22,375 nt of DNA from positions 1 through 22,375 of IMG/VR virus record IMGVR_UViG_3300047548_000731; one strand, given 5' to 3'. The position numbers were made by a program, and so were the translations under genes. Every line of letters begins with the position of its first letter. Position 1 is the first letter of the stretch. The notes beneath the pieces were generated by a model, which was given only the letters and a program-made list of their open reading frames with translations, did no database searches and was not told the origin of the DNA. Below, piece after piece: positions 4,019 to 22,346 of this stretch. Source of the DNA: a virus.

Positions 4019-4633
4019 ATGGCTGCAGGCGATACCGGAATCACCATCTGCTCAGATGCTCTGCTGATGCTGGGCGCGAAGGCCATCTCTTCGTTCAACG
4101 ATGGCACCGACGAGTCCAGCGTCTGTGACCGTCTGTACCCCGACATTCGTGACTCCACGCTGATGATGTACCCGTGGAGTTTCAGCTTCAAGAAGATTCA
4201 ACTCGCCCGCCTGGTGACTGCGCCCGGCAGCGTCTGGAAGTACGCCTACCAGCTGCCTGGTGACCGCCTGGGCAACCCGCGCGCCGTGTACGACACCGCC
4301 GCCGTGGGCGGCACCCCGCGCAAGGATTGGGAGATCCAGGGCGATCAGCTCCTGACCAACCTCGAGGCGGCCTTCATTGACTACCAGTACAGCGTCGGCG
4401 AGTTCGCCATGCCGCAGTACTTCGTGCAGCTGCTGAAGTACCAGGTGGCCTGGCACATCGCCGAGCCGATCACCGAGCAGGCCGAGAAGGCTGGCTTCTG
4501 GCGGCGCATGGCGCTGGGTGAGCCGGGCGAGAACGGGCGCGGCGGCTACTTCCGGCAGGCCACGCAGATCGACGGCGCGAACAACGCGGTCAAGGTGATC
4601 GACGACTACACGCTCATCACGGCGAGGTACTGA
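4019..4633 (+). CDS. Tail tubular protein A (gp11-like adaptor)
   Basis: This 204-residue protein is the ring-forming adaptor that connects the portal to the tail nozzle in T7-like phages. The pattern fits: an N-terminal ICSDALLMLGAKAISSFND (about residues 11-29), the YPDIRDSTLMMYPWSFS motif (about 40-56), YAYQLPGDRLGNPRAVY (about 76-92), and a C-terminal helical part with WHIAEPIT. An AAGAGG ribosome site lies 7 bases before the ATG. The stop TGA overlaps the ATG of the nozzle gene by one base (TGATG), and adjacency of the two is the normal T7-like arrangement. Confidence 0.88.
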   Translation: MAAGDTGITICSDALLMLGAKAISSFNDGTDESSVCDRLYPDIRDSTLMMYPWSFSFKKIQLARLVTAPGSVWKYAYQLPGDRLGNPRAVYDTAAVGGTPRKDWEIQGDQLLTNLEAAFIDYQYSVGEFAMPQYFVQLLKYQVAWHIAEPITEQAEKAGFWRRMALGEPGENGRGGYFRQATQIDGANNAVKVIDDYTLITARY

Positions 4634-18171: not shown

Positions 18172-18342
18172 ATGCCCTGGCCGCCAGACCTGTCCAAGAT
18201 CATTCTCGACGCGCTCGAGAAGTGGATCAAGGTCGTCTGCTACCTGTGGCTCGCGGACATCGCCTTCAGCATTCTCATCGTCCTGCCGCCGGAGATCGGC
18301 AACCGCGTCATTGAATACATCTTGAAGAAGCTGGGCATATGA
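18172..18342 (+). CDS. Small one-TM protein of the lysis cassette
   Basis: The protein has 56 residues, beginning MPWPPDLSKIILDALEKW, followed by one TM segment (VVCYLWLADIAFSILIVLP, about residues 21-39) and a short amphipathic tail IEYILKKLGI. The ATG at 18172 was chosen because it lies 7 bases after the preceding stop, allowing coupling; an in-frame ATG at 18091 would overlap the previous gene by 74 bases. The ribosome site is poor (only GAG nearby). The stop overlaps the next ATG by 4 bases (ATGA). Function is unknown; a pinholin, antiholin or partner of the DUF4337 protein are possibilities. Confidence 0.55.
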   Translation: MPWPPDLSKIILDALEKWIKVVCYLWLADIAFSILIVLPPEIGNRVIEYILKKLGI

Positions 18343-18818
18343 ACTTCATCAGCAAACCTGCTCCCGGTGCCAGCCGGTCTGAGCGCGAGGCCTACGTCAA
18401 GGCCTGGGCCGCCATCACCATCTCTGTCTTCGCCCTGCTGCTGGCCATCAATGGCTACTTCGGCGGCAGCAACTCGAGCCTGGTGCTGAACAAGACCATC
18501 GAGGCCAATAACCTCTGGGCCTGGTATCAGGCCAAGAACATCCGCTCGGTCATCTACGAGGAAGGCGGCAAGGCAGACAAGGCCGCCAAGCAGAAGGCCG
18601 ACATGGAGGACATCAGCAGCAAGGCCAAGAAGGCCGAGGCTGACCGCGATGTCGCCAAGAACAGAAGCCCCTGGTTCTCCTATGCAGGCATGGCCCTGCA
18701 ACTTGCCATCGTCCTGTCGAGCGCCGCGATCTTGGCTGTGATGATGCCCATGCTGCTTGTCAGCGTTGCAGTGGGTGCGGGCGGTGCCGCACTGCTGGTT
18801 TATGCAATGGTGATCTGA
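18339..18818 (+). CDS. DUF4337-like membrane protein
   Basis: This 159-residue protein has three probable TM segments: about residues 23-42 (WAAITISVFALLLAINGYF), 116-136 and 138-158. A charged loop lies between the first and second. The stretch after TM1, NKTIEANNLWAWYQAKNIRSVIYEEG (about 51-76), matches the DUF4337 pattern (Asn-x-x-Ala-x-x-x-Trp-x-x-Tyr-Gln-Ala-Lys-x-x-x). DUF4337 proteins are bacterial membrane proteins of unknown function; I know of no defined role in phages. It overlaps both neighbours (ATGA in front, TGATG behind), so it is firmly in the lysis transcript. Being next to a three-TM holin and lysozyme suggests a role in lysis timing or membrane remodelling (inference). Confidence 0.65.
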   Translation: MNFISKPAPGASRSEREAYVKAWAAITISVFALLLAINGYFGGSNSSLVLNKTIEANNLWAWYQAKNIRSVIYEEGGKADKAAKQKADMEDISSKAKKAEADRDVAKNRSPWFSYAGMALQLAIVLSSAAILAVMMPMLLVSVAVGAGGAALLVYAMVI

Positions 18819-19318
18819 TGCTCTCTCTACTCTCAACCCTTGGCGGCATCCTGCTGGGTGGCCTGCCGAAGCTGCTGGACTACTTCCAATCCAAGCAAGA
18901 CCACAAGCACGAGCTGGAGCTGGCCCGCGTCCAGACCGAGCGCGAGAAGGAGCTGGCCGCGCTGGGCTTCGCTGCTCAGGCCAAGGTCGAGGAGATCCGC
19001 TCCGACCAGATCGCCATGCAGACCGAGGCCTCGATGACCCAGGCCGCGCTCGACCATGACAAGCAGGTGCTGAAGTCGGCCAGCAAGTGGGTGGCCAACT
19101 ACATCGGGACGGTGCGCCCGACTGTGACCTACCTGTTCGTGCTGGAGCTGCTGGCCATCAACGGCTTCCTGGCGTACTACCTCTGGTCGCACCCGGAACT
19201 CATCAAGAGCATCGACGATGTCATCAAGTACTCGGAGCTGATCTTCTCGAGCGATGAGATGGCGATGCTGGGCGGCATCATCGGGTTCTGGTTCGGTTCT
19301 CGGGGCTTCAAGAAGTGA
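18818..19318 (+). CDS. Three-TM holin (GTA-holin type)
   Basis: The 166-residue protein has a hydrophobic N-terminal segment (LLSTLGGILLGGLPKLL, residues 4-20), a long charged coiled coil (about 25-85), then TM segments at about 102-122 (TVTYLFVLELLAINGFLAYYL) and 147-160. The C-terminal pattern VRPTVTYLF ... MLGGIIGFWFGSRGFKK matches the family I know as GTA_holin_3TM or 3TM-type phage holins. These open the inner membrane so that the endolysin reaches the cell wall. It sits directly before the lysozyme, with a 4-base GTGA overlap, the expected holin-endolysin pair. The lysozyme lacks any export signal, so it needs such a holin. Confidence 0.8.
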   Translation: MLSLLSTLGGILLGGLPKLLDYFQSKQDHKHELELARVQTEREKELAALGFAAQAKVEEIRSDQIAMQTEASMTQAALDHDKQVLKSASKWVANYIGTVRPTVTYLFVLELLAINGFLAYYLWSHPELIKSIDDVIKYSELIFSSDEMAMLGGIIGFWFGSRGFKK

Positions 19319-19839
19319 AGCTGTCCGAGCGCGGTGCGGCCCTGATGCACAAGTACGAGGGCTGCCGGAACAAACCCTATCTGTGCCCGGCGCACATCTG
19401 GACGATTGGCTATGGCCATGTGCTGTACCAGGATCAGATCCGTCTGCCGGTGGTGCATCGGGAAGAGGACAAGGCCAAGAAGCCACTGCCCATGCTGAGG
19501 CAGCAGTACCCGCTGAAGGAAGAGGACGCCCGTGTCTGGAGCAAGGACGAGATCAATGCGCTATTCGACACTGATGTCGCAAGTTTTGAACGGGGTGTTC
19601 TACGTCTTGTTCCCGGCGTGGCTGGCCGCCAAGGAGCTTTCGACGCTCTGGTCTCTTTTGCTTTCAATGCTGGGCTAGGCAATCTGCAGCGCAGCACCAT
19701 CCGTACAAAGGCCAACAGAGGCGATTGGGATGGTGCTGCCGAGGCCTTCATGGCCTGGACTAAGGGCGGCGGGAAGGTGCTGCCCGGTCTGGTCAAGCGC
19801 CGCGAGGCAGAGCGCGAACTCTTCCTCTCGGACTACTGA
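19315..19839 (+). CDS. Endolysin, GH24 lysozyme (T4/P22 type)
   Basis: This 174-residue muramidase would cut the glycan strands of peptidoglycan at lysis. The catalytic Glu is E15 (KYEGC), followed by the TIGYGH motif at 30-35 with Thr30 equivalent to T4 lysozyme Thr26. The position equivalent to T4 Asp20 is Cys24 (in YLCPAHIW). FAFNAGLGNL (115-124) and LPGLVKRREAERELF (156-170) are the usual conserved blocks. An extra ~35-residue segment (about 38-73) separates TIGYGH from the SKDEINALFDTDV helix. There is no signal peptide or SAR anchor, so release depends on the holin. The start is GTG, overlapping the holin stop by 4 bases; without it the N-terminal helix would be lost. Its stop interlocks with that of the opposing recT gene. 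Confidence 0.93.
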   Translation: MKLSERGAALMHKYEGCRNKPYLCPAHIWTIGYGHVLYQDQIRLPVVHREEDKAKKPLPMLRQQYPLKEEDARVWSKDEINALFDTDVASFERGVLRLVPGVAGRQGAFDALVSFAFNAGLGNLQRSTIRTKANRGDWDGAAEAFMAWTKGGGKVLPGLVKRREAERELFLSDY

Positions 19840-20897
19840 GCTGCGCCCAGCGCGTTGAGGCGCTTCTGGTACGCGGCTGTGTGCCGGATGCGCTTGAGGG
19901 TGTCGATCCGCTCGAGCGTGGCCTGGTTGCACTCCTTCAGCTCGCGCAGCTTGGTCATCCGCTCACGCGGCGGCACCTTGCCAGCACGGGCCGTCTTCTC
20001 GGCCAGGTCTTCGTAAGCCTCGGCCCACTCATCCAGGCTCTGGTGGATGCTGAACGGCAGCTCCTTGCCCGGCACCATGAGTCCGTAGCCGACGGCCACC
20101 ACCTTTGGGTCGAGGTCGGCCATCTCTGCCATCGCCTCCTCGGCCATGGCCTGCACCGCCTCCACCTCCGGGTCAGGCACGGGCACGGGCGCTGGCACGG
20201 TGACCGCATCGGTAATCTGTTGCTCAACCGCAACAGTAACCGGCTCATCCACGACATCGGCCAGGGCGGCCTCGATCACCACCGGGTCGCTGGTCGGCAG
20301 GGCCGGGGCGGCGACCATATCCAGCGGGTTGGCTGGCTTTATTGCGACCTTACTGTGGTTTAGCTCGCTGGGATAATCTTGCGCCTCCTCGGCGGTGATG
20401 AGGCCCTTCAGCACATCGGGGAAGGCATCGCGCAGGGCGAAGCCCCTGGCCCGCATCTGCATCATCCGCTTGGGATAGGCCTGCCAAGGCCCCTGCTTGC
20501 CCCATAGGCCCGCGCGCTTGGCATCCTCGACCGAGAACGTGGCGCGCACCGGCTTGCGGCCCTTGCGGTGGGCGATGCAGACCGCGACGGGGTTCGGGGT
20601 GCCCTCGCCCTCGATGAACTCCTCGACGCCATCGCAGACCGGGCTGGCCTGCACCAGGGCCATGGCCGCATCCCCGTACACCGAGGGCTTGCCGTTGATG
20701 ACGGCAATGTTCTGCAGCGCCTGCATGGGGGCCAGGCCGATCTCATAGCCCCACTGGACGCAGACCATGATGTCCTGGGGCTTGCCCTGGTAGGCCTTGG
20801 GCACCATGGAGCTGTCAGCCAGCATCTTGCTGAACTCCATGGCCTCGGTGATGGTGGCCGGGGCGAAGCCCTGGCGGTTAGTGGCTAGCTGGCTCAT
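19833..20897 (-). CDS. recT: RecT-family single-strand annealing protein
   Basis: The protein has 354 residues. The RecT core is at residues ~1-190: FAPATITEAMEFSKMLADSSMVPKAYQGKPQDI, VCVQWGYEIGLAPMQALQNIAVINGKPSVYGDAAMALV (about 47-84), ATFSVEDAKRAGLWGKQGPWQAYPKRMMQMRARGFALRDAFPDVLKGL (about 129-176). It anneals complementary single strands exposed by its partner exonuclease in phage recombination and replication. After ~200 there is an acidic Pro/Val/Ala-rich linker (APVPVPDPEVEAV) and a helical C-terminal region with PFSIHQSLDEW, possibly for protein partners. AGAGGA precedes the ATG. It overlaps the upstream 62-residue gene by 20 bases. The exonuclease gene lies three genes upstream in the same operon. 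Confidence 0.9.
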   Translation of the reverse strand: MSQLATNRQGFAPATITEAMEFSKMLADSSMVPKAYQGKPQDIMVCVQWGYEIGLAPMQALQNIAVINGKPSVYGDAAMALVQASPVCDGVEEFIEGEGTPNPVAVCIAHRKGRKPVRATFSVEDAKRAGLWGKQGPWQAYPKRMMQMRARGFALRDAFPDVLKGLITAEEAQDYPSELNHSKVAIKPANPLDMVAAPALPTSDPVVIEAALADVVDEPVTVAVEQQITDAVTVPAPVPVPDPEVEAVQAMAEEAMAEMADLDPKVVAVGYGLMVPGKELPFSIHQSLDEWAEAYEDLAEKTARAGKVPPRERMTKLRELKECNQATLERIDTLKRIRHTAAYQKRLNALGAAQ

Positions 20898-21066
20898 GTT
20901 TCTTTTCCTCTTCTAGGTACGTCCTCATGGTGGTGAAGATCAGTTTTGTCAGGGAGTCAACGACTGCCTCGGCCTCATCCTCGGTGGCTTGGGGGCAGGC
21001 ATTGAGAACGGCGACGACGGCCTCGGAGTAGGCGTCCTCGAGCGGGGTCAGGTCTACTGCGGTCAC
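20878..21066 (-). CDS. Small acidic protein between exonuclease and RecT genes
   Basis: The protein has 62 residues starting TAVDLTPLEDAY after a GTG start, helical and acidic (AVLNACPQATEDEAEAVVDSLTKL), with no TM segment; I recognise no family. The frame is open further upstream because of high GC, but there it lies antisense-frame to the exonuclease and looks unlike protein. The GTG at 21064-21066 was chosen because GGAGG (21072-21076) lies 5 bases upstream and because the GTG overlaps the stop of the 42-residue gene by 4 bases (GTGA). Its end overlaps recT by 20 bases. Such tight coupling suggests it is expressed with, and may bind, the recombination proteins (inference). Confidence 0.6.
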   Translation of the reverse strand: MTAVDLTPLEDAYSEAVVAVLNACPQATEDEAEAVVDSLTKLIFTTMRTYLEEEKKHEPASH

Positions 21067-21191
21067 AGCACCCTCCACCCCAGCAGGAACAGCTCGGACG
21101 CGACTCTGGCGACCAGCCCAAGCACGATCCACAGCAGGGCGAACAGCGCGACCGTCGAGACGAAGACAATGAATCTTTCTGCGGCGGTCAT
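21063..21191 (-). CDS. Tiny one-TM membrane protein in the recombination operon
   Basis: The protein has 42 residues: a short N-terminus (MTAAERF), one long hydrophobic segment (IVFVSTVALFALLWIVLGLVA, residues 8-28), and a C-terminal part ELFLLGWRVL that is also hydrophobic. It could be overlooked because of its size, yet it fills the gap between the exonuclease and the 62-residue gene exactly. Its ATG shares one base with the exonuclease stop (TGATG), with AAGGAGGT ~13 bases upstream, and its TGA overlaps the GTG of the next gene. No family is recognised. A membrane protein here is unexpected; it could be an early inhibitor or exclusion-type peptide, or could anchor partners (speculative). 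Confidence 0.6.
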   Translation of the reverse strand: MTAAERFIVFVSTVALFALLWIVLGLVARVASELFLLGWRVL

Positions 21192-22147
21192 CACTGCTGC
21201 ACCTCCTTGATGGACAGGCTGGACTGCCGCACTGAGTAGGCTTCCTTCGCGGGCACCAGCTTCTCGGGCTGGGCCTTGTAGTTCCGCATCGGCCAGGAGA
21301 TGACGTACCGGCCCGCCCGGCCCTTCTCGGCCTGGCCCAGCAACTCCTTGATGCTCTTCTCGGCCTGCTCGATGCCCTCCTCTGCCTGGCGGATGGCCGC
21401 CTTGTTCTCGATGATGGCCAGCGCCAGCATCTCGACGGTCTCGGGCAGATCAACCACCTCCTTGCTGGCTGCGCTGGGGTAGATCCGATCCAGCTCGCGG
21501 CTGGTCTGCGGTGGATACCACTCGATGCCGCCGGTCTGGCGGTAGGTCTCGAGCCGGGACTCGAAGTCCTGCACCGCCTTGACGATGGCGGCCTGGGTCT
21601 CCTTGTGCTGGGCGAACAGGAAGACCCGCAGCTCGATGCCCTGGTACAGCACGCAGACCGCGCCCCACTTGTGGCCGGTGACCAGCATCTGGCCCTGCAG
21701 CTGGATGGGGCCGCGCGCCAGGTGCGGCACATCCTCGGGTGCGACCTTGGTGACCTTGGACTCCAGCACGCCGGGGCCGTCCAGCCGGATGGTGTCCTGG
21801 CCGACCACGAAGATCCCCTTCTCCGGGTCGCTGGCGATCTCGCGCCCGTCGCCATGGCCGATGCCGTCCAGGCTGCAGGACAGGGCGAAGGAGCGATGGC
21901 TGTACGCCTTGTCGATCTGGAAGTCGCCCTCGATCCCCAGGCGCTGGCAAGCAGCCCCCAGCACCACTGGCTCTAGTGTGTTGCCCCAGGCCATGGCTTC
22001 GTTGCCGATGTCGGGCCGGGGCTTGCCGTCGATGGCATTGATGCTGAACTGCAGCTCATCATTGGGGGTCGAGTACTTGCTGAAGCCCATCAGGCCCGGC
22101 AGGCGGGATGCGGACATCTCGCGGTCATCAGTGAGCTTGCCTGCCAT
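21191..22147 (-). CDS. YqaJ/lambda-exo-type recombination exonuclease
   Basis: The protein has 318 residues with the PD-(D/E)XK fold of YqaJ viral recombinases: ASRLPGLMGFSKYSTPNDEL at the N-terminus (about 13-32), WGNTLEPVV with Glu59, SCSLDGIG with Asp94, GVLESKV with Glu129 and Lys131 (the ExK pair), and QLQGQMLVTGHKWG with Gln149/Gln151. All expected metal-site residues are present, so it should be active. Such enzymes resect double-stranded ends 5' to 3', leaving single strands for a RecT/Bet annealing protein, here encoded three genes downstream. The C-terminal ~90 residues form a charged helical extension (ENKAAIRQAEEGIEQAEKS). The start overlaps the winged-helix gene by 20 bases, with GGAGG just upstream. 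Confidence 0.88.
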   Translation of the reverse strand: MAGKLTDDREMSASRLPGLMGFSKYSTPNDELQFSINAIDGKPRPDIGNEAMAWGNTLEPVVLGAACQRLGIEGDFQIDKAYSHRSFALSCSLDGIGHGDGREIASDPEKGIFVVGQDTIRLDGPGVLESKVTKVAPEDVPHLARGPIQLQGQMLVTGHKWGAVCVLYQGIELRVFLFAQHKETQAAIVKAVQDFESRLETYRQTGGIEWYPPQTSRELDRIYPSAASKEVVDLPETVEMLALAIIENKAAIRQAEEGIEQAEKSIKELLGQAEKGRAGRYVISWPMRNYKAQPEKLVPAKEAYSVRQSSLSIKEVQQ

Positions 22148-22346
22148 GGTCGGCCTCCTTGAGCTTGTATTGGGCGATGTGCTTCCCGTTTGGGGTGGTG
22201 ATGGTCTCGGTCTCGATCTGGATGCCCTGCTGGCGCAGATCGGCGATGCGGGCGGCCAGCCGGAAGCAGCCTGCTTCCTTGAGCGCGTCCAGCGGGGTGA
22301 CCGGGCCGCGCTTGAGCATGGCCAGGATGGCTTCGCATTGGCTCAT
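22128..22346 (-). CDS. Small winged-helix DNA-binding protein
   Basis: The 72-residue protein has the pattern of the helix-turn-helix family I know as HTH_39: AILAMLKRGPVTPLDALKEAGCFRLAARIADLRQQGIQIETETI (about residues 6-49), with a helix, a TPLDAL turn-helix, a recognition helix RLAARIADLRQQG and a beta wing ending in YKLKE. Proteins of this type are common at the start of phage early operons. It could regulate the operon or assist DNA processing; the sequence does not decide. The start is ATG at 22346 with GGGAGG 7 bases upstream, overlapping the stop of a preceding gene (ATGA). Its 3' end overlaps the exonuclease start by 20 bases. Confidence 0.75.
   Translation of the reverse strand: MSQCEAILAMLKRGPVTPLDALKEAGCFRLAARIADLRQQGIQIETETITTPNGKHIAQYKLKEADHGRQAH

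Follow-up and report, generated by a model that had tools for sequence, protein, structure and literature searches.

The window, the whole stretch of DNA analyzed here, is the 22,375-base virus record IMGVR_UViG_3300047548_000731, and it carries a cassette of four overlapping genes on the minus strand. In their direction of reading these are exo (21191..22147), for a YqaJ/RecE-like recombination exonuclease of 318 aa; T1 (21063..21191), for a 42-aa transmembrane (TM) microprotein with one predicted TM helix followed by GLVARVASELFLLGWRVL; s2 (20878..21066), for a 62-aa acidic protein with a GTG start and a pI of 4.3; and recT (19833..20897), for a RecT-family ssDNA annealing protein of 354 aa. 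The initial annotation had described four frames in this order and on this strand, joined by overlaps of 1, 4, and 20 nt, all of which we could confirm on the sequence. The exo TGA ends at 21191, where the ATG of T1 begins (an alternative T1 start, a GTG one codon upstream at 21194, would give a 4-nt overlap with exo), T1 and s2 share the 4-nt stop/start sequence GTGA (21063..21066), and the s2 and recT frames overlap by 20 nt (20878..20897). SD-like sequences, AGGAGG, GGAGG, and GAGGA, precede the starts of T1, s2, and recT. A gene for a 72-aa winged-helix (HTH_39) protein (22128..22346, minus strand; PF14090, E value of 1.1e-14) overlaps the exo start by 20 nt and is the first visible gene of the run to which the cassette belongs. 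At the other end, recT converges with a lysozyme gene on the plus strand (19315-19839), the 3' ends overlapping by 7 nt (19833-19839), and one of the small genes lined up ahead of the lysozyme gene encodes a DUF4337 protein (18339-18818, plus strand; PF14235, 2.8e-27).

The two outer genes are firmly assigned. Exo matches the YqaJ/RecE profile PF09588 above its cutoff (E value of 1.9e-6; 28.7 bits against a cutoff of 22) as well as the RecE-like PHROG 434 (3e-29), and inspection by eye finds the motifs WGNTLEP, CSLDG, LESK, and QLQGQ, which are expected for the nuclease family; the protein is predicted to be a YqaJ-type recombination exonuclease, its nuclease role being read from the sequence. 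RecT matches PF03837 (2.8e-6; 27.5 bits against a cutoff of 24) and PHROG 561 (9.4e-50) and is a predicted RecT annealing protein. The virus bearing the cassette is a MEP301-like podovirus, as judged from its portal, which shares 73% identity with the portal of Methylophilales phage MEP301. MEP301 is a marine phage of OM43 and, according to the published report, has no RNA and DNA polymerase genes (PMC8024684). One relative of the cassette, with s2 present and an exo of only 48% identity, lies on a contig of a Burkholderiales metagenome-assembled genome (L159), a weak hint of betaproteobacterial hosts.

Relatives of the cassette were gathered in three ways, with searches centered on exo, on s2, and on RecT, and s2 was counted over the 138 nonredundant loci that have both exo and recT. 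The acidic frame recurs in 126 of these, at the start of recT in 122 (by profile search) and ahead of an insert that separates it from recT in four (L012, L083, L141, and L144). Where measured, s2 is 56 to 65 aa long; its start usually lies 4 nt inside the end of the upstream gene, be that exo or an inserted gene, and where it adjoins recT its end lies 10 to 23 nt inside the latter. In the 12 loci without s2, exo overlaps recT directly, except in L211 and L212, where another ORF lies between them. Most s2-less lineages have exo and recT re-coupled by a 1- to 4-nt overlap, usually ATGA, and in a further group from a later scan (L265, L267, L268, and L270), s2 is likewise absent and ATGA links exo to recT. 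The deepest branch (L269) has a 51-aa frame that was taken as s2 by eye. Since the s2 state changes four times on the exo tree and on the recT tree, the simplest reading is that s2 is the ancestral third gene of the Exo-RecT cassette and was lost about four times. Whole-record searches of the s2-less records tested found no displaced s2, searches of 50,697 isolate phage records gave no match, and no s2 homolog was found with the isolate RecT relatives of Komagataeibacter phage phiKX1 and Salinibacter phage 3_10.

The s2-recT junction is a second insertion point of the cassette. Read by eye, L012 has a 61-aa s2 followed by an HNH-type nuclease-like frame (4066-4416) before recT, and in L083, L141, and L144 s2 and recT are separated by about 460 nt that hold an HTH-like frame.

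The s2 gene is under purifying selection, with a median dN/dS outside the overlaps of 0.22 over 158 pairs and a tail toward higher values, and the +1 and +2 frames of its DNA mostly contain stops. No match worth following was obtained in Pfam, NCBIfam, PADLOC, PDB, isolate-phage, or plasmid searches; PHROG 710, a family of unknown function, gave weak matches to 11 of 31 members (best, 8e-4), and in the one protein inspected the match did not span the full length. An AF2 model built on a 52-member alignment predicts a helical hairpin (residues 7 to 23 and 29 to 56) with a mean pLDDT of 89.7 and a core of about 98. The most conserved positions (A12, A16, A19, A32, L42, and T46) hold packing residues of small or hydrophobic type, as would suit a tightly packed protein and perhaps a dimer. 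The net charge, by comparison, is -9 in the window and ranges from -2 to -12 (median, -8), with a median pI of 4.2 over the 52 members. A structure search against the PDB returned nothing significant (best E value of 2), and the best viral structure match was an uncharacterized 58-aa podovirus protein (E value of 1.6e-3, 45% identity).

The history of T1 is a different one. Its maximum 19-residue hydropathy of 2.69 bears out the single, clear TM segment noted initially, although TM character alone is not decisive, since a hydrophobic score of at least 1.9 occurs in about 5.5% of all-frame ORFs of 30 to 60 aa in these loci. The search model was built from the TM ORFs of the window and of L005 only, in both of which T1 lies between exo and s2. 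With this model, the L049/L056 group emerged as a third group of family members at an E value of 2.5e-6 among 19,117 small ORFs; it lies in the cassette too, directly 3' of recT with a 4-nt overlap. By inspection, more members with a GWxL-type tail follow recT in L052 (the loosest fit), L060, L172, L173, L177, and L182. The T1 state changes about seven times on the tree, and most relatives have no T1; the gene is an optional, recurrent insert. Whole-record searches of 30 viral records detected it in 6, never outside the cassette, and when 2.9 million viral contigs were scanned with the L172/L182 subgroup, only the same four contigs came back, results to be read in light of nearly all loci being cassette centered and of the limited reach of 42-aa TM profiles. 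No confirmed relative came from scanning viral contigs with the alignment of the window and L005 TM ORFs. The T1 of the window had no match at an E value of 1 or below in Pfam, PHROG, NCBIfam, or PADLOC, the other members had weak matches only (best, 0.017 in Pfam and 0.028 in PHROG), and the T1 profile reached a best E value of 0.55 against the PDB.

Both small frames are thus genuine genes and are coupled to exo and recT, as had been proposed, given the recurrence of the acidic frame and the T1 relatives found. They do not form one inserted pair, as the initial annotation had it; their histories differ, with s2 apparently ancestral and only T1 an optional insert. The expectation that the small frames would be kept in relatives held for s2 and in part for T1, which is sporadic and occupies two positions, and the substitution pattern expected of real genes was obtained for s2, whereas the T1 family gave too few substitutions and the T1 genes of the window and L005 are too diverged from each other. 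The cassette holds two real, unannotated small gene families, of which the acidic s2 is the more interesting.

T1 shares the exo-s2 slot with other occupants. T2, a 31-aa family with one TM segment, is under purifying selection, with pairwise dN/dS values mostly from 0 to 0.26, and T3 is a 49-aa TM microprotein in L179. T1, T2, and T3 were compared as candidates for a single family, and their pairwise scores did not rise above those of shuffles. The slot also holds a 135-aa ORF in L052 and L053 and, in L262, where s2 is present, a KHTPGPW-type ORF of 93 aa (4234-4512). ORFs of the KHTPGPW or A(A)PDLLxAL type were observed in the exo-recT interval of L211 and L212 as well, there without s2. Because such ORFs sit in L211, L212, and L262, the exo-recT junction accepts general small phage genes. 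The exo-s2 slot draws attention to a small group of membrane microproteins in phages as possible counter-defence candidates.

Recombineering is built on pairs of an exonuclease and an annealing protein, which are regarded as machines with two components; in lambda Red, RecET, and SPP1 Chu/35, the two are encoded by neighboring genes. Here, in contrast, a conserved third gene stands between them and overlaps recT. Conserved yet nameless in databases, s2 is probably an overlooked helper of phage recombination. The initial annotation had suggested that the small genes are accessory to the flanking recombination system, which is probably so for both. The combination that we tentatively favor, plausible if short of probable, is that s2 is a helical recombinase accessory and T1 is cargo. 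In this scenario, s2 would be a small, probably dimeric alpha-helical protein that is coproduced with Exo and RecT and binds one of them, more likely RecT because s2 nearly always directly precedes recT. It may tune the loading or the handover of the resected strand, in a role like that proposed for P22 Arf, and would be useful rather than essential. The accessory role is favored because s2 is tied by position to recT and because packing rather than charge is conserved. Counting against it, four lineages keep exo and recT without s2, so that the pair can persist in its absence, and RecBCD inhibitors are also found among the small acidic helical proteins of such cassettes.

Indeed, s2 might itself inhibit host RecBCD or AddAB, in the manner of Gam or of T7 gp5.9, a small acidic DNA-mimic dimer, and so shield DNA ends for the phage exonuclease, an explanation that we regard as possible though doubtful. 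Lambda Gam and gp5.9 resemble s2, a small and acidic protein modeled as a helical hairpin, in being small, highly acidic, and largely alpha-helical, and both are dimers (PMC9836394); that four lineages can dispense with s2 would also fit a host-dependent function. The accessory and inhibitor roles overlap in their predicted anatomy. However, the acidity of s2 is inconstant and the positions it conserves serve packing and are not acidic, which speaks for protein-protein contacts more than for pure mimicry of charge, and an inhibitor would need neither a location between exo and recT nor coupling to recT. No sequence relation of s2 to a solved protein was seen; its profile found no inhibitor in the PDB, an absence that says little, since homology between gp5.9 and Gam is itself undetectable (PMC9836394), and it says equally little that Gam- or gp5.9-type inhibitors were not among the fold-search matches listed. 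Two further explanations are far less probable. The nearly invariant overlaps at both ends of s2 would suit a frame that serves as a translational spacer coupling recT to exo, its protein product having no function; we disfavor this strongly, given the dN/dS of 0.22 outside the overlaps, the conserved hairpin, and the s2-less lineages, which couple exo straight to recT, so that no spacer is needed. It is just as hard to believe that s2 is a shortened HU/IHF-like helical dimerization domain: several HU/IHF hairpins were among its structure matches, with Z scores of up to about 5, but such scores are ordinary for two-helix models. An HU/IHF identity was also examined directly and rejected, as hhalign gave a probability of 4% against four HU/IHF sequences, none of 31 members had a Pfam HU/IHF match, and the model has two helices only, with no DNA-binding beta arm. 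The s2 product, an unannotated third protein conserved in a large group of uncultured phages and encoded by a gene that overlaps recT, is a concrete accessory-factor candidate, one that might boost or limit the activity of RecT or shield DNA ends.

For T1, a role as cargo in host interaction is probable. The microprotein would insert into the inner membrane and act on the host or on competing phages, through exclusion, counter-defence, or a mild membrane effect, rather than being a working part of the recombinase. We propose that T1 rides in the cassette because the ATGA and GTGA stop-start junctions admit an added gene without breaking coupled translation. The absence of T1 outside the cassette, both in the 30 records and in the L172/L182 scan, counts against this, being odd for freely moving cargo. 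The same confinement to the cassette, at two junctions only (after exo or after recT) and with stop/start overlaps, would instead suit a real membrane arm that tethers a complex of Exo, s2, and RecT to the inner membrane, for example, at the site of phage DNA entry or replication, and the predicted tail after the TM segment, short and usually with R or K, is compatible with a cytoplasmic end. We nevertheless consider such an arm unlikely, since most relatives do without T1, its state changes about seven times, T2 and T3 in the same slot are unrelated to it, and the slot also holds soluble ORFs. That T1 and s2 together anchor end resection and annealing at the inner membrane, forming a four-part membrane-tethered recombinase, is more doubtful still; it keeps a slim chance because T1 is apparently confined to the cassette.

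Among the closest known systems is the P22 recombination module arf-erf-abc1-abc2, in which a small gene of unknown role likewise lies beside that of a single-strand annealing protein. The function of Arf is unknown (PMC5928155); the protein is small and acidic, and DNA mimicry has been put forward as a possibility for it (PMC9836394). P22 differs in that its annealing protein is Erf and host RecBCD is hijacked by Abc2 (PMC5928155), whereas here a YqaJ-type exonuclease accompanies the annealing protein, and the likeness of s2 to Arf is one of description; Arf was absent from the PHROG, Pfam, and phage-record matches of s2. By its portal, MEP301 belongs to the same virus group as the window, and it has the same kind of exonuclease (37% identity), but an ERF-family gene follows its exo, and a search of the surrounding 8.6 kb turned up no homolog of either s2 or T1. 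In L151, a relative of the MEP301 type, exo and the ERF-family gene are separated by a 60-aa charged ORF (2480-2662) with no recognizable relation to s2; it is possibly an analogue of s2 in the same place.
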